Assembly: GCF_030323145.1 (NCBI RefSeq)
Contig: NZ_CP100470.1
Coordinates: 1,364,001-1,428,000 of the forward strand
DNA: 64,000 nucleotides
Direction of reading: 5' to 3'
DNA from: Mesorhizobium sp. C432A
Lineage (GTDB): Bacteria > Pseudomonadota > Alphaproteobacteria > Rhizobiales > Rhizobiaceae
Each line of letters opens with the position of its first letter. Position 1 is the first letter of the stretch. The position numbers and the translations under genes were made by a program. This document shows, in pieces, positions 10,498-24,767 of this stretch. The notes under the pieces were generated by a model. The model ran no database searches, was not told the origin of the DNA, and saw nothing but the letters and a program-made list of their open reading frames with translations.

Positions 10498-12104
10498 CTA
10501 TGCAGGCCGGCGGATCATATCCGCCGCCTTCTCGGCGATCATCACCACTGGCGAGGCGGTGTTGCCGGAGACGATGCGCGGCATGATCGAGGCGTCGACG
10601 ACGCGCAGGCCCTCGACACCGGTCACGCGCAGGTCCGGGCTGACGACGGCGCGGCCGTCGACACCCATCCTACAGGTGCCGACCGGATGAAAGATGGTCG
10701 TCGCGATCGAGCCGATCTGGTGCAGCAGGTCCTCGTCCGACTGGTGGGCGAGACCAGGCAGGATTTCTTCCGGATGGAAGCCGGCAAGAGCCTTGGCGGT
10801 CATGATGCCGCGCGCCTGGCGCACCGAACGCAGCGCGATCTCGCGGTCGCGCACCGTCGAGAGATAGTTCAGCCGGATTTCCGGCTGCACCGCCAGGTCG
10901 CGGGTCGTGGCGTGCACCGAGCCGACGCTCTCGGGCCGCAGATTGCAGACCGACATGGTGATTGCCGGGAACGGGTGCAGCGGGTCGCCCAGCCGGTCGG
11001 TAGACAAGGGCTGGACGTGGTACTCCAGGTCCGGCGTCGCCATCGACGGACCGGATTTCGAGAACATGCCGAACTGGCTCGGCGCCATCGACATCGGTCC
11101 CGAGCGGCCAAAGGCATATTGCAGCGCGATCTTCGCCTTGCCGCTCAGGCTGTTGGCTAGCGTGTTGAGCGTCAGCGCCGACGACACTTTGTAGACAGTG
11201 CGGATCTGCAGATGGTCCTGAAGGTTCTCGCCGACATCGGGGCTGGCGTGAACCACATCGATGCCGAGCGCGGCGAGGCGATCCGGCTCGCCGACCCCGG
11301 AAAGCTCCAGCAGTTTCGGCGTGTTAATCGAGCCGGCGGTCAGCAGCACCTCGCTCCTGGCCTTTGCCTCGATGGTTTGGCCGCCGACGCGATAACAAAC
11401 GCCGATAGCACGCTTGCCCTCGAACAACACCGTCTCGACATGCGCGTTGACGACCAGCCTGAGGTTCGGCCGTCGCAGCGCCGGGCGCAAGAATGCCTTG
11501 GCTGTGTTCCAGCGCACGCCCTTGCTCTGGTTGACTTCGAAGAAGCCGGACCCCTCATTGTCGCCGTCGTTAAAATCCTCGCGCGGCATGATGCCGAATT
11601 CCTTGGCCGCCTCCTGCACGGTGTTCAGGATCGGCCAGGACAGGCGTTGCCGCGCCACTTTCCATTCGCCGCCGGAACCGTGCAGCTCGGTCTTGCCGCC
11701 ATGATGGTCCTCGGATTTGAGGAAATAGGGCAGCACATCGTCCCAGCCCCAGCCGACATTGCCCATCTGCCGCCAGCCATCATAGTCCGCCGCCTGTCCC
11801 CGCATGTAGATCATGCCGTTGACCGAGGTGCAGCCGCCCAACACCTTGCCCCGGGGATAGACCAGCGAGCGGCCGTTCAGGCCGGCTTCGGGGCAGTCTT
11901 CATCATCCAGTCGGTGCGCGGATTGCCGATGCAATAGAGATAGCCGACCGGGATATGCACCCAGTGATAATTGTCGCTGCCGCCGGCCTCGAGCAGCAGC
12001 ACGCGCGTCGCCGGGTTTTCGCTCAGGCGATTGGCCAGCACGCAGCCGGCGGTGCCTGCGCCGACAATGATGTAGTCGTAGTCGCCATCGAGCCGTTGGG
12101 TCAT
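10498..12104 (-). pseudogene. GMC-family FAD oxidoreductase, frameshifted
   Basis: Resembles choline/alcohol dehydrogenases of the GMC family. The N-terminus from the ATG at 12104 ([23 protein letters not shown] fold) stops at 11877. From about 11890 the conserved sequence continues in another frame: YPRGKVLGGCTSVNGMIYMR, then SGVG and the C-terminal HPVGTCRMG and GNTASPVVMIAEKAADMI. The switch is at a G4 run (11890-11893), consistent with loss of one base. The ATG overlaps the kinase stop as ATGA, so this is the last gene of the nine-gene sugar operon. A real lesion would leave only 75 residues. Confidence 0.85.
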
Positions 12105-13639
12105 TGCGGTGGTTTACTCGGCGGTGTTCTACTCGGTTCTGCGGCGTGTTCGGCCCAGAACGATCGCAGCGTATCGGCAAGGCCGCAATAGGCGCGATAA
12201 CGCCTGTTGTAATGGTCCTGCATGGCCGGGTTCGGACGGTAGGCGGCGCTTGACCGGGTCATGGCGTCGACGCCGGCCTCATAGTCGGCGAACAGGCCGG
12301 CCGCGACCCCGGCGCCGATCGCCGCACCAAGTGCGCCGGTCTCGCGTGCTTCAGGGACGGTGATCGGCACGCCAAGCCCGTCGGCGAAGATCTGCGGCCA
12401 GTGCTCGCTGCGCGAACCGCCGCCGGACAGGACCGCTTTGTCGAAGCTGACACCGGCGTCCTTCAGAACATTGATGTGGCGCCGGTGCTCGAACATCACG
12501 CCCTCGAACAGCGCGCGCAGCATATGGCCTTCCCTATGCCAGCCGGCGAGGCCGTAGAAGCCGGCGCGGAACTCCGCCCCTTGTCCCGACCCGTAGAGAA
12601 ACGGGTGGAACATCGGATCGTCCCAGGTTGGCGTCACCGCGCCGACAGCCGCGTTGCAGTGGCCGAACGGATCGTCATAATGGGCACCGCGCTCGACGAG
12701 TTCGCGTACATACCATTCGAGATTGGCGGCCGATGTAGCGCTGGATTCGATGTTGACGAAACGGCCGGGACCGAAGCGCGCCACCATGAAAACATCTGGG
12801 TCGACGACCGGCGCGGTGGAGAAGACCTGATTGACCGACCAGGTGCCGGCGATAACAGAGGCTTCGCCGGGACGCACGACGCCGGCTCCCATGGCGCTGG
12901 CGACGACGTCGAAATAGCCGGCGATGACCGGCGTGCCTTCCGCCAGTCCGGTCTCTTCAGCCGCTTGTGTGGTGACCGCGCCGGCGATGTCGGCGCTGTC
13001 GAGCAATCGAGGCAGTTTGGCTTGCGCATCCTCGATGCCGTAGAGCGCGAGAAGCTCGGAATCATAGACGCCTTCGGGCATGCGGACGAGGCCGCAACCG
13101 GACATGTCGGAGACATCGCTGACCCGCTCGCCCGTCAGGCGGTAGGCGATGAAATCCTTGCACAGCATCGCCGTGCCGGTTGCGGCATAAAGGTCGGGCG
13201 CATGCTGCTTGACCCAGGCCAGCAAGGTCGGCGTCTGCGCCGGCCACGGCTTTTGCAGGCAGATCGCATGCAGCGCTTCGGCATTGCGCGAGGCCAGCGT
13301 CGACGCCAGGCCGGCGGCGCGGGTGTCGAGCGACTGGATGCCGATCAGCGGTTCACCGGCACGGTCGACCAGATAAAGGCCGTTGCCATGGCCGGCGCAA
13401 CCGATGGCGGCGATTCCGCGGGCATCGATGCCGGCCTGCGCGATGCAGGCGCGGATGGCGTCGCGCGCATCGGCCCACATGCCGCCGAGGTCGCGCTCGA
13501 CATAGCCGGGTTGCGGCGTCTGCGAACGGCCGGCGACCGCATGCATGGCGAGCTGCCGTCCCGTATGATCGAACAGCACCGCCTTGATGATGGTGTTGCC
13601 GGCGTCGAGGCCGAGCAGATAGGCGGCTTGATCAGCCAT
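12101..13639 (-). CDS. FGGY-family carbohydrate kinase
   Basis: A 512-residue ATP-dependent sugar/polyol kinase. The N-terminal phosphate-1 motif is [17 protein letters not shown]. The central [21 protein letters not shown] and the C-terminal adenosine region [20 protein letters not shown] are typical. Overall layout is closest to what I recall of L-xylulose kinase (LyxK) and erythritol kinase (EryA), so a C4/C5 polyol or ketose is likely; substrate not determined. It overlaps the aldolase by 8 bases and the GMC gene by 4. Confidence 0.92.
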
Positions 13640-14474
13640 TGTTGTAGATGTCCCAAGCCTCTTCGCCGCCGGCGTCGTTGTGGATCATCGCCATCAACGC
13701 ACTCACTACCGCCTTCGGATTGGCATGCTGATAGATGTTGCGGCCATAGACCAGCCCCTTGGCGCCTTGTCTGAGCAGGGCTGACGATTTTGCCAGCACC
13801 GTCTTGAGATCGTCCTTGCCGCCGCCACGTACCAGCACCGGCACGCGTGCCGCCTCGACGACGCGGTGGAAATCTTCCGCGTGCTCGGTGGGGTCGGCCT
13901 TGATGATGTCGGCGCCCATTTCGGCGGCGAGCCGCACCAGCGTCACGATCTTTTCCGCATCGCCGTCGACCTGGTAGCCGCCTCTGATATCGTTGGGCAG
14001 CATGACCAGCGGCTCGATCATCAAGGGCATGCCGTATCGCTGGCAGGCGGCGCGGACCTTGGCGATGTTTTCGACGCATTGGCGAAACAGCTCCGGCTCG
14101 TCGGGCAGCATGAACAGATTGACGACGACGCAGGCCGCATCCATTTGCAGCGCGCCGATGATCGGCTCGTCATGGTTCTGCAGCATCGACCACATCACCC
14201 GGTGGCGCTGTGCATTGTAAGGGTTGCCCATGTCGATGCGCATGACCAGCGCCGGCTTGTCCTTGTCCGGCCGCGATTGCAGCAGATCGGCCTGGCCATA
14301 GGCGAGCTGCAGCGCATCGGGCCCTGCCGCGATCAGCGTGTCGATGACACGTGGCATGTCCTCCAGGCCGATGAGAAACCCCGGTTCATTGCAGACGCCG
14401 TGATCGAGCGCCACGTCGAGGCAATTGCCGTTGGTGAACATCCGGTTCATCCGGGCCTTGGCGCTGACTTTCAT
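13632..14474 (-). CDS. Class I aldolase of the DeoC/FbaB/LsrF type
   Basis: A 280-residue TIM-barrel aldolase. MFTNGNCLDVALDHGVCNEPG carries the catalytic Asp-His region; EMGADIIKADPTEHAEDF contains the likely Schiff-base Lys; LVRGGGK and GLVYGRNIYQ bind phosphate. Probably cleaves a phosphorylated sugar made by the neighbouring kinase and dehydrogenase. The ATG at 14474 has CAGGAG upstream. Overlaps the end of the dehydrogenase frame by 89 bases. Confidence 0.9.
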   Translation of the reverse strand: MKVSAKARMNRMFTNGNCLDVALDHGVCNEPGFLIGLEDMPRVIDTLIAAGPDALQLAYGQADLLQSRPDKDKPALVMRIDMGNPYNAQRHRVMWSMLQNHDEPIIGALQMDAACVVVNLFMLPDEPELFRQCVENIAKVRAACQRYGMPLMIEPLVMLPNDIRGGYQVDGDAEKIVTLVRLAAEMGADIIKADPTEHAEDFHRVVEAARVPVLVRGGGKDDLKTVLAKSSALLRQGAKGLVYGRNIYQHANPKAVVSALMAMIHNDAGGEEAWDIYNNG

Positions 14475-16194
14475 GTTCTGCTCCTGCGATCGTGCGTTGG
14501 TCGAGCATCTCTTGCGAGACGCCGTGATAGGTGTCGAGTTCGGCGATGAGACTTTTTATCTCCTCGTCGCGGTGCGGATCGCTCCAGCCGTGTTCAGCGG
14601 CCAGTGCATCGGCGATGCGCTCGATTGATACCGTCGAGATGTCGCCGGCAATGGCAAGCGACGTGCGGCGCAAGACAACATCCGAGAGGCAGGTCACGAA
14701 CTCATGTCGGGCGAGATAGACGATCTCGGCCGTCGTGGTTTCGGTCCTGTCGTCGAGCCTGATGTCGTCGGAACGACCGAGGCAGAACTGGATGATGTCG
14801 CGCGCGCCGCTGCCGTAGCGATCGATGAGATAGGCGGCGCGGTTGGCACTGATCGCGAACTCACCCGCCAGCTCGGTTGCCAGCGATGCCGGATTCTCGG
14901 GGAACCCGAGGCCGCCGCCAATCGCCAGGGCCAGCGTACTGCAAACGCGCTCGCGGCCAAGCTCGGCTAGCACGTCATCGCCCGCCTGCTCGGCGAAGGC
15001 GCGGAAGGTCGTCCACTTGCCGCCGATCATGCAGAATTGCGGGATGTCGCCGGCAATGCGGTGTACGGAATGGCCGCGCGATATTCGGCCGGTGAAGGCA
15101 TGATCGCTCTTCGGCAGCGGCCGGATGCCGCTATAGGTGAAGACGACGTCGGCGGCACGGACCGAAATGGACGGGAATACCAACCGCGCCGCCGCCAATA
15201 TGTAGTCGGTCTCGGCCGGTTCGCAGCGCACGCGCCCGGCTTCGCTGACGCGGATATCCGTCGAGCCGACCAGCACCTTGCCGAGATAGGGAAACATGAT
15301 GCAGACGCGACCGTCGGCATTCTCGAAGAAAATCATGTGACCGCCGAGCGCACGGTAGAGCGGCTCGTTGTCGAGGATGAGGTGCGAGCCCTTGGTGCCC
15401 TCGACCAGGGGCGCCGCGGGCTTTTCGGAGGCGTCGAGCCGGGCGATCGCCGAATCCAGCCATGCGCCGGTCGCATTGACGATCGCCTTGGCGGTCACGG
15501 TGAAGCCTTCACCACCCACCGTATCGGTGAGCTCGAAGGAGGAGCCCGCGCGCGCGATCTCGGCGCGATTTAGCGCGAGGCTGTCGGGCGCCAGGCGTGC
15601 GGTATCGAGCAGCAATTCGATGCCGAGCCGTTCGGGGTAGCTGATCCAGGCGTCGTAATAGGTAGCGGAAAAGCGCAGTTTGGGATCGAGCGTCGGCCAT
15701 TGCGCGAAGGTCGCCCTGGCGCCACGGAAACTGTGGCGCGGCAGCACCCGGCGCTTGCGCGTCGTCCAGTCGTAGAGCGCGAGGCCTGCCTTGATCGCCA
15801 GCGCGCCGCGGCTGGAAGGCGTTTCCGAAAGCCCGAGAAAGCCTGCCGCGCCGTTCATCAGCCCGGAGAAGACGGAGCGGATCGGAATTGTCGTCGGCAG
15901 CGGCCGCACCATATGCGGCGCATTGGCCAGCAGCGCGTCGCGTTCGCGCAGCGATTCCTGCACCAGGCCGAACTCGCCATTCTCGAGATAGCGCAGGCCG
16001 CCATGGATCATGCGCGAGGATGCCGCACTGCAGCCCGAACAGAAATCGTTGCGTTCGACCAGCAGAACTCGGAGACCCTGCAGCGCCAGTTCGCGGAAAA
16101 CGCCGATGCCGTTTATGCCGCCGCCCATGACAACGACATCGAACGCGCCGTTGCGGCGGATCGTGTCGAGGATGACGGTTCTCTGATCAGGCAT
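14386..16194 (-). CDS. GlpD-like FAD-dependent polyol-phosphate dehydrogenase
   Basis: About 602 residues. The FAD-binding VVVMGGGINGIGVFRELALQ is followed by RMIHGGLRYLENGEF, a GlpD hallmark, and by IVNATGAW and FTYSGIRPLPK. The C-terminal domain resembles that of glycerol-3-phosphate dehydrogenases. By analogy with EryB it would oxidise a polyol phosphate and pass electrons to quinone. ATG at 16194 preferred over TTG at 16209. The last 30 residues are encoded inside the aldolase gene, an unusually long overlap; a third frame here would end in an ATGA at the aldolase start, so a small indel near the 3' end cannot be excluded. Confidence 0.88.
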   Translation of the reverse strand: MPDQRTVILDTIRRNGAFDVVVMGGGINGIGVFRELALQGLRVLLVERNDFCSGCSAASSRMIHGGLRYLENGEFGLVQESLRERDALLANAPHMVRPLPTTIPIRSVFSGLMNGAAGFLGLSETPSSRGALAIKAGLALYDWTTRKRRVLPRHSFRGARATFAQWPTLDPKLRFSATYYDAWISYPERLGIELLLDTARLAPDSLALNRAEIARAGSSFELTDTVGGEGFTVTAKAIVNATGAWLDSAIARLDASEKPAAPLVEGTKGSHLILDNEPLYRALGGHMIFFENADGRVCIMFPYLGKVLVGSTDIRVSEAGRVRCEPAETDYILAAARLVFPSISVRAADVVFTYSGIRPLPKSDHAFTGRISRGHSVHRIAGDIPQFCMIGGKWTTFRAFAEQAGDDVLAELGRERVCSTLALAIGGGLGFPENPASLATELAGEFAISANRAAYLIDRYGSGARDIIQFCLGRSDDIRLDDRTETTTAEIVYLARHEFVTCLSDVVLRRTSLAIAGDISTVSIERIADALAAEHGWSDPHRDEEIKSLIAELDTYHGVSQEMLDQRTIAGAEHESQRQGPDEPDVHQRQLPRRGARSRRLQ

Positions 16195-16271
16195 GGCTTT
16201 GCCGGGCAAGGTTGGGCCGTTCTGCCGTCCGGTGGACGGCAGCTCAACTTGGTTCGGGTTACTGGTGGCGG

Positions 16272-17267
16272 TCAGGCGTCGAGATTGGTCAGATGGCGGC
16301 TGGCGGCCTCACTGATCTGGTTGATCTCCTGTCCCGACAATTTGATGCGGCCGGCCTGCGCGTTTTCCCTGGCTTGCTGCGGGCTGCGCGCGCCGCAGAG
16401 TGAGAAGGCGATGCCGGGCTGCTGCAGCGTCCAGGCGATGACCACCTGCGCCTCGCTGGCGCCGTGCGCCTCGGCACTCGGCTTGATCGCTTCCATCAGC
16501 GCTGCCACCTTGCGGCGGTTGGGCTGCGAGAAGCGCGGATTGTCCTTGCGCTGGTCGTCGCCGGTAAAGAGGCGGTCGGGACCGATCTTGCCCGAGAGCA
16601 GACCGAGCGCCAGCGACGAATAGCTGAGCACCGACACGTTGTTCCGGGCGCAGAAGGGCAAGAGATCCTGTTCCATGTCACGCGCAACCATGCTGTATTC
16701 CTGCTGGACCGCATCGAGTTGGCCGGCCGCGAGATAGGCCTTCACATCGGCGACGCTGACATTGCTGGCGCCGATGGAGCGGATCTTGCCCTGGGTCTTG
16801 AGGCGGTCGAGCGCTTCCATCGTTTCAGTGACCGGCGTGGTCGGATCCTGCCAGTGGGTGATGTAGTGGTCGATATGGTCGGTGCCGAGGCGGCGCAGGC
16901 TCTGCTCGACTTCGTAGACGACAGAGTCGGCACCGAGATAGCGATGCACCGGCGCGCCGTCATAGTCGAAGAAGTGGTTGCCCTTCTTGGTATGCCAGAC
17001 CAGCCCAAGCTTGGTGGCAAGGACGACCTTGTCACGGCGACCCTTTATCGCCTTGCCGACGATTTCCTCCGACAGGCCTTGGCCATAGGCAGGCGCGGTG
17101 TCGATCAGCGAAACGCCTTCGTCGATCGAGGCGCGGATGGTGTCGATGGATTGCGCCTCGTCGGTGCCGCCCCACATCCAGCCGCCAATGGCCCAGGTGC
17201 CAAGGCCGATTGCGGAGGCGGATATTCCCGACGCGCCAATGGTGCGCGTCAACATTTCAGGCGACAT
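16272..17267 (-). CDS. Aldo/keto reductase
   Basis: A 331-residue NADPH-type oxidoreductase. It has IGLGTWAIGGWMWGG, then the catalytic Asp/Tyr in LIDTAPAYGQGLSEE, the Lys in VLATKLGL and the His in HYITHWQDP. The layout fits the AKR11/IolS-like group, often used in sugar catabolism. The chosen ATG at 17267 has GGAG 9 bases upstream and overlaps the regulator gene by 11 bases. Confidence 0.92.
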   Translation of the reverse strand: MSPEMLTRTIGASGISASAIGLGTWAIGGWMWGGTDEAQSIDTIRASIDEGVSLIDTAPAYGQGLSEEIVGKAIKGRRDKVVLATKLGLVWHTKKGNHFFDYDGAPVHRYLGADSVVYEVEQSLRRLGTDHIDHYITHWQDPTTPVTETMEALDRLKTQGKIRSIGASNVSVADVKAYLAAGQLDAVQQEYSMVARDMEQDLLPFCARNNVSVLSYSSLALGLLSGKIGPDRLFTGDDQRKDNPRFSQPNRRKVAALMEAIKPSAEAHGASEAQVVIAWTLQQPGIAFSLCGARSPQQARENAQAGRIKLSGQEINQISEAASRHLTNLDA

Positions 17268-18237
17268 TGCGTATGCTCCCCGCATTGCTCAGGACTGCAT
17301 TGGCCGTCTCTTCGTCGACGACCAGTGATTTGAGATAGTTGCCGCGAAGCGCGGCACGGATCGGCCAGATCTTTTCGGCGCCGCTGGCCACCCCCATCAC
17401 CGACCGGCAGCGGCCAAGTTCCGAAGGCGCCAGCGCTACCAGGCGGTCATTGGGCGGGTAGTCGGCCAGCGCGCCGTCGTCGCGGATCAGATGCGCAAGG
17501 AACTCGCCGACCGCGCCGCTGGCGGCGAGTTTTTCGCGGTCGGGATCGAGGCCTGGGTGGAGGTCGTAGTAGCTCGATCCCGGCGTCTGAATCGACCCGA
17601 CGCCGACCAGCGCGATCGCCGCCATGCGCGCCAGGTCGAAGATCTCGCGCACCGAGGCCATGTCCAGCAGGAGATCGCGCTGCTCGCGGCTTTCGGCAAA
17701 GAGTGGCGCATGCAAGAGCATGCTGGTGCCGCCGAGGCGTTCGGCCAGCCGCGTCGCCAGATGGTTGACGTCGGTATAGTGCTTGCCCTGGACGCCGCCG
17801 GTCAGCGGCACGACGGTGACGTCGAAGGCGCGCTCGGGCTGCAGGTTTTCGACCAGCGCGCTGATCGCCTTGCCGCCGGTAATGGCGATGACGTCGCCGT
17901 CGCGCAAGGTCTCGAGCAACTGGTTGGCCGCCGCGCGCCCCACCTGCTGCAGCGTGCTGTCGGGACTGCCGGCCACGGTCGGCGTCACGATCGCGGCTGC
18001 CAGTTGCGCGACCTCGATCAGCTGCTTTTCGATGTCGACAAGGCGCTGGAACGGGCTCTCGACCGCGATCCTCAGCATGCCGAGCTTGCGCCCTTGCGCG
18101 ATCAGCCGATTGACTTTCGACGCCGAAAGGTTGAGCGCCGCCGCAATGTCGTTCTGCTTCATGCCGTCGACGAAGTGCAGCACCAGAACGGTGTGGATCT
18201 GCCGGATCGCCTCGAAATCTTCCCTGCCGTCCGCCAT
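17257..18237 (-). CDS. SorC/DeoR-type sugar-responsive transcription regulator
   Basis: A 326-residue regulator. Residues about 15-55 form a helix-turn-helix (QNDIAAALNLSASKVNRLIA), followed by a SorC-type effector domain with AIVTPTVAGSPDSTLQQVGR and VVPLTGGVQGKHY. EryD and LsrR belong to the same family. Encoded in the middle of the operon it probably controls, so autoregulation through the twin operators at 21909-21997 is likely. Starts one base after the permease stop. Confidence 0.92.
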   Translation of the reverse strand: MADGREDFEAIRQIHTVLVLHFVDGMKQNDIAAALNLSASKVNRLIAQGRKLGMLRIAVESPFQRLVDIEKQLIEVAQLAAAIVTPTVAGSPDSTLQQVGRAAANQLLETLRDGDVIAITGGKAISALVENLQPERAFDVTVVPLTGGVQGKHYTDVNHLATRLAERLGGTSMLLHAPLFAESREQRDLLLDMASVREIFDLARMAAIALVGVGSIQTPGSSYYDLHPGLDPDREKLAASGAVGEFLAHLIRDDGALADYPPNDRLVALAPSELGRCRSVMGVASGAEKIWPIRAALRGNYLKSLVVDEETANAVLSNAGSIRNVA

Positions 18238-18238
18238 C

Positions 18239-19246
18239 TCAGCCCCGCCGCTTGTTGAAGTAGTAATCGGCGGTGACCGCCGTCAGCAGAATGGACCCGC
18301 GGATGATGTCCTGCCAATAGACGGACACGTCGAGCAGAGCGAGCGAGCTTGAAACGACGGAGAGCAGGATGGTGCCAAGGATGGCGCCGAGAATGGTGCC
18401 GGAGCCACCAGTGAGGCTGGCGCCGCCGATCACCGCGGCGGCGATGACGTTCAGCTCCATGCCGGCGCCGAAGGTCGGCTGGGCCGAGCCGAAACGGGCC
18501 ATGTAGATCACGCCGGCAAAGCCGCACAGGGTCGAGCAGAGCGTCGTCGTCAGGAACACGACCTTCTTGGTACGGATGCCGGAATAGGCGGCGGCCTTCT
18601 CATTGCTGCCGGTGTAGAAGACTTTGCGAAACATCGTCGTGCGGCGCAGCATGAAGTCGGACACGATGACGAAGACGATGAAGATGATGATGACGACCGG
18701 AATGCCGCCAATGGCGCCCTGGCCGATGAATTTGAACTCGGGCGGCAGGGTATAGAGCCCGAGCGGGCGGCCGCCGGTGCCGAGCAGGCAGAGCCCGCGC
18801 GCAATCACCATCACGGCCAGAGAGACGATGAAGTGGTGCAATCCCACCCTGGTGACGAAGAAGCCCATAAAGGCGCCGATGCCTGCACAGGCCGCTATTG
18901 CAATCAATGATGCCAGCCAGGGGTCGACGCCGCCGAGGAAGAGCAGGCCGGCAATGACCATGGCGAGTGCGGTGACCGAACCGACCGAAAGGTCGATGCC
19001 GCCTGAGATCAGAAGGATCGTCATGCCGACGACGACGATGCCTTCGACCGCGAAGGCCATCGCCATCGCCCGCATGTTGTCCCAGGTCAGGAAGTACGGC
19101 GATGCGAACGACATAACCGCAAAGAGCACGGCGATGATGAGGATCAGACCGGTCTCGCGCATCCTGATCAGGCCGCCAAGCCTTTCACCGAACCCGATGC
19201 GGGCCGGCGGCGTCACGCTGTCCATGCTTTCCCCCACGATGCTCAT
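18239..19246 (-). CDS. ABC sugar transporter permease (RbsC-like)
   Basis: A 335-residue inner-membrane permease with about nine or ten hydrophobic segments. The family signatures GGIDLSVGSVTALAMVIAG and, later, VIGGASLTGGSGTILGAILG are present. It pairs with the ATPase encoded just upstream, whose stop overlaps this ATG by 4 bases, in a carbohydrate-uptake type 2 system. Confidence 0.95.
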   Translation of the reverse strand: MSIVGESMDSVTPPARIGFGERLGGLIRMRETGLILIIAVLFAVMSFASPYFLTWDNMRAMAMAFAVEGIVVVGMTILLISGGIDLSVGSVTALAMVIAGLLFLGGVDPWLASLIAIAACAGIGAFMGFFVTRVGLHHFIVSLAVMVIARGLCLLGTGGRPLGLYTLPPEFKFIGQGAIGGIPVVIIIFIVFVIVSDFMLRRTTMFRKVFYTGSNEKAAAYSGIRTKKVVFLTTTLCSTLCGFAGVIYMARFGSAQPTFGAGMELNVIAAAVIGGASLTGGSGTILGAILGTILLSVVSSSLALLDVSVYWQDIIRGSILLTAVTADYYFNKRRG

Positions 19247-20781
19247 GCGGCGCTCCGTTGCCGGCCGTCATCGGCAAGCGATGCCAGGACCATGATGTTT
19301 TCTTCGGTCATTTCCGCGCCGGTGACCTCGCCGGTGATGCGTCCCTCGCGTACGATCAGCACCCGGTCGCAGACACCGATCAGTTCCGGCAGTTCCGACG
19401 AGATGACCACGATGCCGACGCCGTCGCGCGCCAGCTTGCGCAGGATCCGGTGGATTTCGGCCTTGGCGCCGACATCGACGCCGCGCGTCGGCTCGTCGAG
19501 GAAGATCACTTTCGGGTCGACCGACAGCATCTTGGCGATCGCCACCTTCTGCTGGTTGCCACCCGAGAGCGTCGAAACCGGCTGGCCGACGTGGCCGCAT
19601 TTCAGCGACAGCTGCCTGCCGATGGTTTCCGCCCGCTGCTTCTCGTGGCGGTCGTTGATGAGGCCGAAGCGCGTCGAGATCCGATCCACCGCCAGCGCCG
19701 AGATGTTGGCGGCGATCGACATGTCGAGGAACAAGCCGTCGCCCTTGCGGTCCTCGGAGAGGTAGACGATGCCGGCGGCGATGCTGTCGCCATAATGGGC
19801 CAGCGACAGCGGCTTGCCATGCAGGCTGACATTGCCGGTCACCTGACCCTCCAGCCGGCAGATACCCCGAACGATCTCGCTGCGACCGGCGCCGATCAGG
19901 CCGCCAATGCCGAGGATTTCGCCCTTGCGCAACTGGAAGCTGATGTCGCGGAAGGTGGTCGTCTCGCAGAGGTTGCTGACCTCGAGCAGAATTTCCTCGG
20001 ACTGCTCGTCGCCGCGCAGCTTCTCGGGATAGAGGCTGTCGATGACGCGGCCGACCATGGACGCCACGACCTGTTCTGGCGTCGTCGCCGATATGTCGAG
20101 CGTGGTGATGTACTGGCCGTCGCGCAGCACCGTGACGCGGTCGCAGTTTTCGAAGATTTCGGCCATGCGGTGCGAGATGTAGATGATGCCGATGCCTTCG
20201 CCGGCAAGCTGGTGGATGATCTCGAACAGCTTCTTGGCCTCGCGCTCGGTCAGCGCGGCGGTCGGCTCGTCGAAGATGAGGATGCGGCAATCGAGCGTCA
20301 GCGCCTTGGCGATCTCGACCAGCTGCTGCTGGGAGATCGACAGGCTGCGCACCATCGCGGTCGGATCGATGTTGCCAAGTCGCGCCAGGATGGCTGTCGC
20401 ACGTTTCTCGAGGTCGCGGTAATTCATCAGCAGCGCCTTGCTGGCGTTGGTGATCGACATGAAGATGTTTTCGGCCACCGAGACATCGGGGCAGAGCGCG
20501 ATCTCCTGATGAACGAAGCCGATGCCGAGCTTTTGCGCCGCCAGCGGCGAGGGGATCGAAACGGAGCGGCCATCGATCTGGATGTCGCCGCTGTCGGGCG
20601 GCAGTATGCCGTCGATCACCTTCATCAACGTCGACTTGCCGGCGCCGTTCTCGCCGGCAATGGCGTGGATTTCGGCGGCGCGCAGCTCGAAACCAACATC
20701 GCGCAACGCACGGACAGGGCCGAACGATTTGCGGAGGCCGGATATTTTGAGGAGGGCCGGGATTTCCACTTGTGTGCTCAC
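19243..20781 (-). CDS. ABC sugar transporter ATP-binding protein (RbsA-like, fused double domain)
   Basis: A 512-residue protein with two nucleotide-binding domains. The first has GENGAGKSTLMK, LSISQQQLVEIAKAL (weak signature) and RILIFDEPTAAL. The second has a degenerate Walker A (GLIGAGRSE) and a strong signature LSGGNQQKVAIAK followed by VIFLDEPTRGVD, as is normal for RbsA-type proteins. The start is GTG at 20781. It lies 58 bases after the binding-protein gene. Confidence 0.95.
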   Translation of the reverse strand: MSTQVEIPALLKISGLRKSFGPVRALRDVGFELRAAEIHAIAGENGAGKSTLMKVIDGILPPDSGDIQIDGRSVSIPSPLAAQKLGIGFVHQEIALCPDVSVAENIFMSITNASKALLMNYRDLEKRATAILARLGNIDPTAMVRSLSISQQQLVEIAKALTLDCRILIFDEPTAALTEREAKKLFEIIHQLAGEGIGIIYISHRMAEIFENCDRVTVLRDGQYITTLDISATTPEQVVASMVGRVIDSLYPEKLRGDEQSEEILLEVSNLCETTTFRDISFQLRKGEILGIGGLIGAGRSEIVRGICRLEGQVTGNVSLHGKPLSLAHYGDSIAAGIVYLSEDRKGDGLFLDMSIAANISALAVDRISTRFGLINDRHEKQRAETIGRQLSLKCGHVGQPVSTLSGGNQQKVAIAKMLSVDPKVIFLDEPTRGVDVGAKAEIHRILRKLARDGVGIVVISSELPELIGVCDRVLIVREGRITGEVTGAEMTEENIMVLASLADDGRQRSAA

Positions 20782-20839
20782 CTGCTCAGGGAGGGATAAG
20801 GCAACCGCGCCGGATGGCGCGATTGCCTGATGGACGCGA

Positions 20840-21853
20840 TTAGCTGGGATCGCGGCCCTGCATGTACTTGTTCAGGTCGAACGAGTCGGCATTCTCCTTG
20901 GTGATGACGGCAAAGCCGTTATCGGCGAAGGGGATGCTCATCGGGTTGTGGCCCGACGTCTTGTAGTCGTTGAACGGGTCGATCAGTTCCGGATGCGCCG
21001 CCATGAAGGTGGCGACGAAGCCGAGATAACCCTGCATTCCCTGGTTCGGGCTCAGCGCCATGTGGATGTTGCCGGCCTTGATCTGCTCTAGCGTCGCCGG
21101 GGTGATGTCGGCGTGCATGATCAGCACCTTGGCCTTGGCTTCGAGAACGGCCGCGACCGCGCCTTCGGCTGAACCGGCTTCCGGAATCCAAAGCGCCTTG
21201 AGGTTCGGGTTGGCTTGCAGCATCGAGGCCACCGCCTTGTTGGCGACATTGGCGTCCTGGTTAGAGGCCTGGCGTCCGACCAGCTTCATCTTCGGATAGT
21301 TCTTGGCGAGATAGTCGATTAAGGCGGTGACGCGCAGATCGTGGTTGCTCTGGCCGGGGTTCTCAAGCACGCCATATTCGGCGTCGTCGCCGACCTGCTT
21401 GACGATCTCCTCGGCGGCAAACTTGGCTTCCGCCAGATTGTCCGAGGTGATGTAGGAGACGCGCTTGGATTTTGGCGAGTCGGCGGCGAAGGTGACGACG
21501 GTGGTGCCGTTCTCGATGGCGCGGTTGATCGGCTCGATGAACGGATCGGCCTGCATCGGGTGCAGCAGCACGCCGGCCGGCTTCTTGATCAGATCCTGTT
21601 CGAAGGAAGCGATCTGCTTGGCGATGTCATAGTCCGGCGTGCCCGAAAACACTGTCTTGCAGCCCATCGCCGCAGCCGCCTGCTTGAAGCCCTGATAGAC
21701 CGGCACCCAATAGGGATGCGCGGAGACCATGACGTTCATCACGTAGGTCTCATCCGGCTTGCACTGAAACTTGCTCTCTGCCGACGCTGGCATCGCCAGG
21801 GTCAACGTCATCACGGCGGCGCTCAGCGCGCCCACCAGCCCAATCCTGTTCAT
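20840..21853 (-). CDS. ABC sugar transporter substrate-binding protein
   Basis: A 337-residue periplasmic binding protein of the RbsB type. A Sec signal peptide ends at about MPASAES, and the mature part begins with two-lobe ligand-binding sequence (VMVSAHPYWVPVYQGFKQAA). Cys residues in FQCKPDE and MGCKTVF could pair. The ATG at 21853 has a strong GGAGGAGA. First gene of the nine-gene operon, 56 bases after the downstream operator. Confidence 0.94.
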   Translation of the reverse strand: MNRIGLVGALSAAVMTLTLAMPASAESKFQCKPDETYVMNVMVSAHPYWVPVYQGFKQAAAAMGCKTVFSGTPDYDIAKQIASFEQDLIKKPAGVLLHPMQADPFIEPINRAIENGTTVVTFAADSPKSKRVSYITSDNLAEAKFAAEEIVKQVGDDAEYGVLENPGQSNHDLRVTALIDYLAKNYPKMKLVGRQASNQDANVANKAVASMLQANPNLKALWIPEAGSAEGAVAAVLEAKAKVLIMHADITPATLEQIKAGNIHMALSPNQGMQGYLGFVATFMAAHPELIDPFNDYKTSGHNPMSIPFADNGFAVITKENADSFDLNKYMQGRDPS

Positions 21854-21908
21854 TCTCTCCTCCGGGTTCCCCGACGATGAAAGCCTCGTCGCATCAGCTT
21901 TGCAAGAA

Positions 21909-21925
21909 ATTTCATAAAATGAAAT
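21909..21925. promoter_or_regulatory. Operator 1: ATTTCA-N5-TGAAAT
   Basis: A perfect 6+6 inverted repeat with 5-base spacer, located just downstream of the -10 element at 21938-21943 of the minus-strand promoter. An identical pair of half-sites occurs at 21981-21997. Likely bound by the operon's SorC-type regulator; inferred from position. Confidence 0.65.
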
Positions 21926-21937
21926 CTCTGGCGGGGT

Positions 21938-21966
21938 TGAATACGGCGGGATTTGTGCCATGTCAA
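21938..21966 (-). promoter_or_regulatory. Promoter of the nine-gene sugar operon
   Basis: On the minus strand, TTGACA (21966-21961) and TATTCA (21943-21938) are separated by exactly 17 bases. The promoter lies between the two operator copies, about 85 bases upstream of the binding-protein ATG. Confidence 0.65.
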
Positions 21967-21980
21967 TGATGGCGAACGAA

Positions 21981-21997
21981 ATTTCAGTATGTGAAAT
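21981..21997. promoter_or_regulatory. Operator 2: ATTTCA-N5-TGAAAT
   Basis: Same half-sites as operator 1 with a different 5-base spacer, located just upstream of the -35 element. Centre-to-centre distance to operator 1 is 72 bases, close to seven helical turns, which would place both on one face of the DNA. The rest of 21854-22213 shows no gene. Confidence 0.65.
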
Positions 21998-22744: not shown

Positions 22745-23174
22745 GAAACAGCCCGGGCGCATGTCATTCTGGATAGCGAGCGTGGTAGGATCGGCTGCCG
22801 CTTACCTTATCGGCTCTACGCCTGCCGGCTATCTGGCGGGGAAACTGCTTAAGGGCATCGATATCCGGGAGCACGGCTCCAAGCCCACCGGTGCGACAAA
22901 TGTATTGCGCACACTCGGGAAATGGCCAGCATTGGTGGTGCTTCTGGTGGACGTGCTGAAAGGGGCGGCAGCGGTCATCTTTGCCCGTTGGTTTTGTTTC
23001 TGGTCTTCCGCAACGCCGCCGTCGGCAATATCTGATATGCCCGTTTGGGCTCCTCGGGTTGTATGCCTGGCCGGACTCGCTGTTTTGCTTGGGCATAGCC
23101 GTTCGATCTGGCTGAATTTCACCGGCGGCAAATCGGCTGCGACGGGGTTGGGTGTTTTGTTGGCGATGTCCTGG

Positions 23175-24512
23175 GGTAGTGTGCTGAGAGTTCTGCAAAT
23201 TCGCTGAGAGAGGGCGGTCATGGCAGGCTGGTGATGTTCAACGTCACCGATTCCTGGAAGGAACGCCACCATGACCAAGACAGAAGGTAAATCGACCAGC
23301 GCTGCCGTCAAAGACATTCTGCTTTCGAACCCGGAGGGGCTGCACGAAGTGATCCGTGCGGTAATGCAGGAGGTTCTCGAGGCCGAGATGGAGGAGGCGC
23401 TGGGTGCTTCGAAGGGCGAACGCACGCCTGAGCGCCTTGGGTATCGCTCGGGTTACTACGGCCGCACCCTGGTCACCCGGGTGGGCAAGCTTGAGCTGCG
23501 GGTTCCACAGGACCGGGCGGGTCACTTCTCCACCGAACTGTTCGAGCGCTACCAGCGTTCGGAGCGGGCCTTGGTGGCGACGCTTGCGGAGATGTATGTG
23601 CAGGGCGTGTCGACCCGCAAGGTCAAGGCGATCACGGAAGAGCTGTGCGGTCATGCGTTCTCGGCTTCGTCGATCTCGGCCATCAACAAGCGCTTGGACG
23701 AGAGCCTGAAGGCGTTTGCCGAACGACCGCTTCAGGAGCCATTCCCCTACCTCATTCTCGATGCCCGCTACGAGAAAGTGCGCGAAGCCGGCATCGTGAT
23801 GAGCCAGGCGGTGCTGATCGCGGTCGGCATCGACTGGGACGGAAGGCGCCAGATCCTGGCCGTGGAGATGGCCAATCGCGAGAGCCGCTCGGCCTGGAAG
23901 GACTTCCTCGTCGGCTTGAAACGACGCGGTCTCAAGGGCGTCGAACTGGCCGTGTCCGACGACCATGCCGGCCTGGTCGCGGCGATCGGCGAGGTGATCC
24001 CGGAAGCAGCATGGCAGCGCTGCTACGTCCACTTCCTCAGGAACGCGCTCGATCACCTGCCCAGGAAGCACGGCGACGATTGTCTGCAGGAACTGCGCTG
24101 GCTCTACGACCGGCGCGATCTCGCCGAGGCCAAGGCCGATCTCGCCGCGTGGCTGTCCAAATGGTCCGCCCGCTACCCGCGGCTGACCACCTGGGCGGAA
24201 GAAGCCATAGAACAGACGCTGACTTTCTTCCGGCTGCCGCGTCAGCATCACAAGCACCTCAAGTCCACCAACATGCTTGAACGGCTCAACGAGGAAATCC
24301 GCCGGCGCACCTATGTCGTGCGCATCTTCCCGAACGCCGAAAGCTGCCTGCGCCTGGTCAGGGCGCTGGCCGTCGAAACCAACGAAAACTGGATGGAGGC
24401 CAACCGCTATATCAACATGGATGATCTGCGCGAGCACAAGAAGCTCGCTCTACGCCAAGCCGCATGACCAGTTTCATGATCGCCCATTTTGCAGAACTTG
24501 ACGCACACAACC
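23175..24512 (+). mobile_element. IS256-family insertion sequence inside plsY
   Basis: A complete element of 1338 bp with imperfect terminal inverted repeats. The left end is GGTAGTGTGCTGAGAGTTCT and on; the complement of the right end is GGTTGTGTGCGTCAAGTTCT and on; both then share GCAAA. It is flanked by the 8-bp direct repeat TGTCCTGG (23167-23174 and 24513-24520), the duplication size normal for IS256. The intact ends and target repeat suggest recent insertion. Confidence 0.95.
23271..24467 (+). CDS. IS256-family (Mutator-type) transposase
   Basis: A 398-residue DDE transposase, full length. The catalytic residues are in LILDARYEKVRE (D), VSDDHAGLVAAIG (D) and TNMLERLNEEIRRRT (E), and the family's conserved CYVHFLRNALDHLP is intact. 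The start is the ATG at 23271 with GGAAGGA upstream. No sign of decay, so the element may still be mobile. Confidence 0.97.
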   Translation: MTKTEGKSTSAAVKDILLSNPEGLHEVIRAVMQEVLEAEMEEALGASKGERTPERLGYRSGYYGRTLVTRVGKLELRVPQDRAGHFSTELFERYQRSERALVATLAEMYVQGVSTRKVKAITEELCGHAFSASSISAINKRLDESLKAFAERPLQEPFPYLILDARYEKVREAGIVMSQAVLIAVGIDWDGRRQILAVEMANRESRSAWKDFLVGLKRRGLKGVELAVSDDHAGLVAAIGEVIPEAAWQRCYVHFLRNALDHLPRKHGDDCLQELRWLYDRRDLAEAKADLAAWLSKWSARYPRLTTWAEEAIEQTLTFFRLPRQHHKHLKSTNMLERLNEEIRRRTYVVRIFPNAESCLRLVRALAVETNENWMEANRYINMDDLREHKKLALRQAA

Positions 24513-24767
24513 TGTCCTGGCCTGTGGGTCTAGGCGCGGCGACGGCATTTGCCGTGGTGTTGGCAGTTTCCCGAATTGTGTCCCTGAGTTCGATGCTGGC
24601 GGCGCTCACCGCGATCGCCCTCGTCGGCGGCATGGAACAACCATTGCCCTACCGGTTGCTGGTCATCGCCGGCGGCATCTACGTGATCGTGCGCCACCGC
24701 GCCAACATTGCGCGGCTGATGTCAGGAGCCGAGCCGCGTCTATGACAAAGCGGCACTCATTCCCGGT

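Follow-up and report, generated by a model that had tools for sequence, protein, structure and literature searches.

A conserved nine-gene catabolic array

We analysed nine adjacent genes of Mesorhizobium sp. C432A that may form a single catabolic unit, controlled by a SorC-type regulator, for one monosaccharide or polyol, probably a C5-C6 compound or a deoxy form; we rate this reading as an even call. The evidence for it consists of the ordered genes, conserved catalytic residues, repeats upstream of the first gene and signs of purifying selection, together with a related kinase/GlpD pair that stands beside a class II fructose-bisphosphate (FBP)-aldolase-type gene in Rhizobium johnstonii TP25. 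The window, by which we mean the whole 64-kb stretch of DNA analysed, covers bases 1364001-1428000 of a one-contig 6.02-Mb genome, and the array occupies 10498-21853 of it, all on the minus strand. A sequence-only reading had described nine co-directional genes of the following families, and open reading frame (ORF) coordinates and profile matches confirmed them. In the order of transcription, they are:

20840..21853, minus strand: periplasmic sugar-binding protein (SBP), RbsB-like (Peripla_BP_4)
19243..20781, minus strand: ABC transporter ATPase, RbsA-like, with a GTG start (PF00005; NF008030 at 509 bits, under the cut-off of 745)
18239..19246, minus strand: ABC transporter permease, RbsC-like (PF02653, 4.1e-36)
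17257..18237, minus strand: SorC/LsrR/DeoR-type regulator (PF04198 sugar-binding domain, 3.6e-56; 28% identity to E. coli LsrR)
16272..17285, minus strand, start at 17285 or 17267: aldo-keto reductase (AKR), YdjG/GSP69-like (PF00248, 9.3e-68)
14386..16194, minus strand: GlpD-like FAD dehydrogenase, substrate probably a polyol phosphate (PF01266, PF16901; aligned to 2qcu)
13632..14474, minus strand: DhnA/LsrF-type class I (Schiff-base) aldolase (PF01791 domain, TIM-barrel fold)
12101..13639, minus strand: FGGY carbohydrate kinase, L-xylulose-kinase-like (PF00370/PF02782, FGGY_N/FGGY_C)
10498..12104, minus strand: GMC oxidoreductase, frameshifted near 11898 (PF00732/PF05199 in the open part)

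The tight packing noted earlier holds for six junctions, where genes overlap or lie 1 nt apart, but not for the other two, with a gap of 58 nt between the SBP and ATPase genes and one of 77 nt between the AKR and GlpD-like genes. The ATPase and permease genes overlap by 4 nt, the permease and SorC genes are separated by 1 nt, SorC and AKR overlap by 29 nt if the AKR starts at 17285 and by 11 nt if it starts at 17267, and the GlpD-like/aldolase and aldolase/kinase overlaps are 89 and 8 nt. An ATGA at 12104-12101 is common to the kinase stop and the GMC start, but the GMC frame that begins there ends after 75 codons.

To place the array among other genomes, we scanned named genomes with an aldolase alignment, which returned at least 519 stretches encoding a relative; the best 80, chosen by the aldolase alone (79-96% identity), were kept as loci. 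In 55 of the 80 loci, all nine genes keep this order and are read from a single strand (54 loci have all nine by full-length BLAST). The core of SorC, AKR, GlpD-like enzyme, aldolase and kinase is in order in 75 loci, and in 66 together with GMC. Full-length BLAST orthologues were found in 80 loci for the aldolase, 79 each for the GlpD-like enzyme and AKR, 77 each for the kinase and SorC, 68 for GMC, 67 for the permease, 66 for the ATPase and 64 for the SBP. We computed dN/dS against three close relatives (loci L033-L035), obtaining 0.03-0.18, and against the more distant L037, obtaining 0.10-0.22 for all genes. With its order kept in 55/80 loci and dN/dS of 0.03-0.18 against the close relatives, the array exceeds chance, and by this comparison it is best described as a widespread conserved operon and no local oddity. 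A neighbourhood check had been suggested for Rhizobiales; the array recurs there and beyond.

The complete array is present in Sinorhizobium meliloti 1021 (pSymB, at about 515-527 kb), S. medicae WSM419, R. etli CFN 42 (p42b) and a plasmid of R. johnstonii, and by annotation all nine genes are on pRL12 of R. johnstonii 3841. Carriers include Mesorhizobium, Roseobacters and Devosia, as well as Agrobacterium, where an adjacent GMC gene is missing. Eight of the nine genes, without GMC, are found on a Photobacterium plasmid (L119) and in one genome of the same class (L157). The nearest named relatives of the aldolase are from Mesorhizobium; within this genus, 11 of the 37 genomes searched (our own included) encode it. 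Ten neighbourhoods from this search were compared: the array is complete in seven, and one combines the six non-transport genes with a different transporter; the last two, in which the aldolase shows 44% identity, lack all the other genes. A draw of 398 genomes from the phylum gave 10 aldolase matches at E <= 1e-60, our own genome among them; identity is at least 69% in nine of the ten. The operon is patchy between genomes and stable as a unit.

Another transporter stands in place of the Rbs-type one in 11/80 loci; in L047, the replacement comprises its own SBP, an ATPase and two permeases. In four Rhodobacterales loci (L050, L058, L063, L073), the Rbs-type transporter is accompanied by one of the replacement type, encoded downstream of GMC, giving two uptake systems beside one pathway. 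In 16 loci, a zinc-type alcohol dehydrogenase (TIGR02817, annotated at L047:11272-12285) lies between kinase and GMC. A chemoreceptor gene follows the kinase, at the place of GMC, in three Agrobacterium-group loci (L108 at 12619-14823, L110 and L112), that of L108 being a methyl-accepting chemotaxis protein with a dCache domain; this hints at chemotaxis toward the same substrate. The Photobacterium locus, in which GMC is missing, encodes an iron-type alcohol dehydrogenase and an aldehyde dehydrogenase 2.7 kb past the kinase (L119:15087-17746).

Predicted control region upstream of the first gene

The interval in front of the SBP gene, 21854-21997, reads as free of coding sequence and contains operator-like and promoter-like sites, the former being inverted repeats with the half-site TGAAAT/ATTTCA:

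21906..21928, strand not assigned: promoter-proximal operator-like inverted repeat with a TTTCAT-N3-ATGAAA core
21938..21966, minus strand: promoter-like TTGACA-17-TATTCA between the two repeats, read by eye
21978..21996, strand not assigned: promoter-distal operator-like inverted repeat, 72 bp from the proximal repeat

The promoter-like hexamers and their spacing are identical in L033-L035. A consensus promoter scan did not list the site at 21938-21966; it listed another at 21995-21966, and its total of 2 sites compares with a shuffle mean of 1.9. The operator-like patterns occur at only two sites within the window, both 5' of the first gene, and a pattern built from the first repeat has one other match in 6.02 Mb, with two mismatches. 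Among 70 upstream regions, 54 have an operator-like site and 16 have none of the three core patterns; exact TGAAATNNATTTCA is present in 34 (mononucleotide-shuffle mean 0.0/70) and GAAATTTC in 26 (shuffle mean 0.25/70). Two repeats that flank a promoter-like site and have no further copy in the 64 kb fit one SorC-controlled unit; these predicted elements support, but do not prove, a single SorC-controlled transcript. Taken with the conserved gene order, they agree with the earlier proposal of one regulated catabolic unit.

Conserved residues and the proposed route

Catalytic positions are conserved in the alignments. The aldolase has an aligned Schiff-base lysine, K192, in 81/81 sequences, and its catalytic lysine and phosphate loop are conserved. 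D244 of the kinase, which we take to be the catalytic Asp, is present in 78/78 sequences. In the AKR, D57, Y62, K87 and H139 are found in 80/80 sequences and presumably form the Asp-Tyr-Lys-His tetrad. R68, R358, K393 and R398 of the GlpD-like enzyme are likewise present in 80/80, and its phosphate-site and FAD-motif residues are conserved. This enzyme scores 272.8 bits against the GlpD equivalog NF008899 (cut-off 360), making it a homologue and not GlpD proper. The kinase is 33% identical to LyxK, 28% to LsrK and 26% to XylB, the three E. coli kinases compared.

From these families, we propose the following route. The Rbs-type ABC transporter would import a sugar or polyol; a fold comparison of the SBP gave no decision for or against a polyol ligand. 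The AKR would most likely reduce the imported sugar to a polyol, or else handle the final aldehyde; this is the weakest step. The LyxK-like FGGY kinase would then phosphorylate a terminal hydroxyl, and the GlpD-like flavoenzyme would oxidise the hydroxyl beside the phosphate to give a ketose 1-phosphate, passing electrons to the respiratory chain. The Schiff-base aldolase would cleave this product to dihydroxyacetone phosphate (DHAP) and a C2 or C3 aldehyde. GMC would be accessory, probably disposing of the aldehyde or alcohol product, while SorC would control one promoter through the two flanking repeats.

A more specific and more tentative proposal, to which we give clearly less than an even chance, is that this redox detour replaces isomerisation: the AKR would reduce an isomerisation-resistant (branched, deoxy or keto) sugar, the FGGY kinase would phosphorylate the polyol, the membrane-linked GlpD homologue would re-oxidise it to a ketose 1-phosphate, and an enzyme of a new LsrF-clade subfamily would cleave it, in a pathway that would be common among Alphaproteobacteria and have escaped notice in model rhizobia. 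The substrate range of C4-C6 given earlier can be narrowed little; by chemical reasoning, cleavage of a C4 substrate would necessarily give formaldehyde.

The frameshifted GMC gene and a possible core redox step

The ninth gene, GMC, is FRAMESHIFTED in this genome's sequence, whereas the other eight genes are open, and to this extent the earlier count of nine genes has to be amended. Beginning within the ATGA shared with the kinase gene, its frame includes the FAD motif and reaches a stop after 75 codons; the FAD-binding N-terminus and the remaining ~465 residues are in different frames. L033-L035 each have a single open GMC frame across the lesion (535 aa at L035:12356-13963). When our genome was compared with the intact GMC of L035, the one-frame match at this locus covered residues 70-534 only; five further GMC matches in the genome show 34-42% identity. 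The remainder of the gene has a dN/dS of 0.09-0.15 against L033-L035, similar to the other genes. Because of this resemblance, the lesion would be recent or an assembly error, and the frameshift may be either a real mutation or such an error.

By a looser criterion, GMC was not found in 11/80 loci, four of which are cut or extend less than 1.5 kb beyond the kinase; in the other seven (L074, L098, L104, L108, L109, L110 and L112), it was not found despite 3.4-8.5 kb of sequence beyond the kinase. The AKR is missing in just one locus of the 80, L065, which is cut. Since the AKR is absent from a cut locus only and GMC from seven uncut ones, the pattern suggests a core redox role for the AKR rather than for GMC. 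The sequence-only reading had proposed an oxidise-first route ("oxidise, phosphorylate, oxidise, cleave"), which would put GMC at its head; with GMC broken here and not found in 11 loci, we prefer, with low confidence, "reduce, phosphorylate, oxidise, cleave" as the better match to the conserved core.

Alternative readings

We weighed four rival explanations. The archaeal-type FBP aldolase catalytic tyrosine is absent from the aldolase; its position, a phenylalanine in the 1w8s chain compared, corresponds to Leu156 in one alignment and to Leu159 in another, each conserved in 81/81 sequences. An aldolase without the usual catalytic tyrosine makes an Lsr-like thiolysis a possible alternative: a ketose such as a 1-deoxypentulose would be phosphorylated, the GlpD-like enzyme would oxidise the carbon adjoining the phosphate, forming a 2,4-diketone phosphate, and CoA-dependent cleavage by the LsrF-like enzyme would yield DHAP and an acyl-CoA. 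We consider this unlikely. The aldolase scores 104 bits against the LsrF thiolase NF006081 (cut-off 297), and in the loci of two more distant relatives (49% in L129, 52% in L158), the genes next in line encode a Gfo/Idh oxidoreductase, a protein of the lyxose isomerase family and a PfkB kinase, without GlpD. These neighbours suggest a ketose phosphate as the natural substrate there, which favours aldol cleavage over thiolysis. L129:9917-13736 and L158:9898-17097 are a different operon, in L158 with an Rbs-type transporter. In L156, from another class, the aldolase, AKR and transporter are kept and SorC and GMC were not found; its kinase and GlpD are adjacent, on the opposite strand, and belong to other branches (LyxK-like at 28%, second-pair GlpD at 46%), as expected if these steps are interchangeable. 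Decay of the unit in this strain to the point of lost function, as the frameshift in GMC might indicate, seems to us distinctly improbable: all of the other eight genes have open frames and show purifying selection, the dN/dS of the GMC remainder points to a recent lesion or an assembly error, and the seven uncut loci without GMC suggest that the unit may do without it.

The remaining two rivals would assign the array to a known pathway. A variant erythritol (C4 polyol) operon, with the aldolase replacing EryC/H/I, would account for a kinase, GlpD, SorC and ABC transporter of the same kinds, but we hold it to be highly unlikely. Identity of the kinase and GlpD-like enzyme to ery-type proteins, whether from R. 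johnstonii or from our own genome, is only 28-30%, an ery-like pair is located elsewhere in this genome (L124), and cleavage of a C4 substrate would yield formaldehyde, for which there is no enzyme among the nine genes. The ery label of the reference genes is our assumption from gene context. Even less credible, to a degree that leaves it little room, is an operon for uptake and breakdown of autoinducer 2 (AI-2), despite its SorC/LsrR, LsrK-like, LsrF-like and LsrAC-like parts. The SBP scores 38 bits against LsrB (cut-off 384) with no BLAST match, one permease is present instead of two, and none of the nine genes encodes LsrG. No gap within the array exceeds 77 nt; past GMC, before 10498, there are just short ORFs of 74-216 aa, which were not compared with protein families. 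Of three clustered Ruegeria proteins, one matched LsrG weakly. GlpD, AKR and GMC are not known to act in AI-2 breakdown. Judged by these comparisons, neither the Lsr nor the ery label fits the operon, in line with the earlier statement that its substrate is not recognisable from the genes.

Literature, significance and a neighbouring locus

Among the open-access papers searched, we found no characterised operon with this gene set; its substrate may be known in fitness-browser or subscription data. SMb20504 may be the SBP of this operon. The gene appears in PMC12542648 as a 'putative ABC transporter periplasmic sugar-binding protein'. Two other candidates were set aside. SMb20484-20488, a predicted psicose locus in PMC4961836, are probably not genes of this operon, judged by the gene content given there. 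The gmcA gene of PMC7105596, pRL100444, is on pRL10 and was rejected as the GMC gene of the operon, which in R. johnstonii 3841 is on pRL12.

The novelty is in the gene composition, the parts being of known kinds, and the gain to be expected is a pathway and no new class of mechanism. The array is present in genetically tractable strains (S. meliloti 1021, R. johnstonii 3841 and R. etli CFN 42). Identification of the substrate would (i) reveal a nutrient of Alphaproteobacteria that live in soil, with plants and in the sea; (ii) assign activities to a DhnA-type 'FBP aldolase', a GlpD-type 'G3P dehydrogenase/oxidase' and a LyxK-like kinase; and (iii) decide between aldolase and thiolase for the LsrF-clade enzyme here.

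Elsewhere in the window, a second plsY-like gene (PF02660) at 22797-23192 and 24512-24718 is split by a transposase-like ORF at 23271-24467, which we take to be of the IS256 type. Another plsY-like copy in the genome, at 3978448-3978984 of its single contig (G000:C1), covers the whole profile.

Comparison with known systems

The Lsr (AI-2) operon of E. coli K-12 has, like the array, a SorC regulator, an FGGY kinase, a DhnA-type enzyme and an Rbs-type ABC transporter. The array differs from it in having a single permease and in the additional AKR, GlpD-like and GMC genes. The likeness to Lsr operons remarked on earlier stands at the family level but goes no further, with identities of 30% for the aldolase, 28% for the kinase and 28% for SorC; the range is 28-31% apart from the ATPase (37%). 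E. coli LyxK was the best match of the three E. coli kinases, but it is placed with 2,3-diketo-L-gulonate genes and without GlpD. Compared with MJ0400 (ADH synthase) and archaeal class I FBP aldolase, the aldolase has the same fold, Schiff-base lysine and phosphate loop, but identity in structural alignments is 19-25%, and it has leucine for tyrosine and extra loop residues.

Ery operons likewise combine an FGGY kinase, a GlpD-like enzyme and an ABC transporter. They have the EryC/H/I isomerases, none of which is among the nine genes here, and so the earlier contrast of an aldolase in place of isomerases holds. At 28-30% identity, the kinase and GlpD-like enzyme do not qualify as EryA and EryB orthologues. 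The claim that kinase and GlpD are common to ery operons survives at the superfamily level; both proteins are nearer to a second, non-ery pair (38-39% for the kinase, 43-44% for the GlpD-like enzyme), the closest among the proteins compared. This pair is U8P77_RS31790/RS31795 on pRlX3 of R. johnstonii TP25, and L123:9784-11322 and 12092-13804 in our own genome. The latter two are not EryA/EryB but form a distinct pair; the ery-like one is in L124. In our genome (L123:6332-13804), the second pair is preceded by a RuBisCO-large-chain-family protein and an SBD_N/NBD_C gene, presumably of the four-carbon-acid-kinase type. In R. johnstonii TP25, an aldolase gene and ABC transporters adjoin the second pair, as they do here. 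However, that aldolase gene, on the opposite strand, is of the class II FBP type and is accompanied by a sugar-phosphate isomerase/epimerase, in place of the DhnA-type aldolase and AKR of the array, and the regulator is of the DeoR type.

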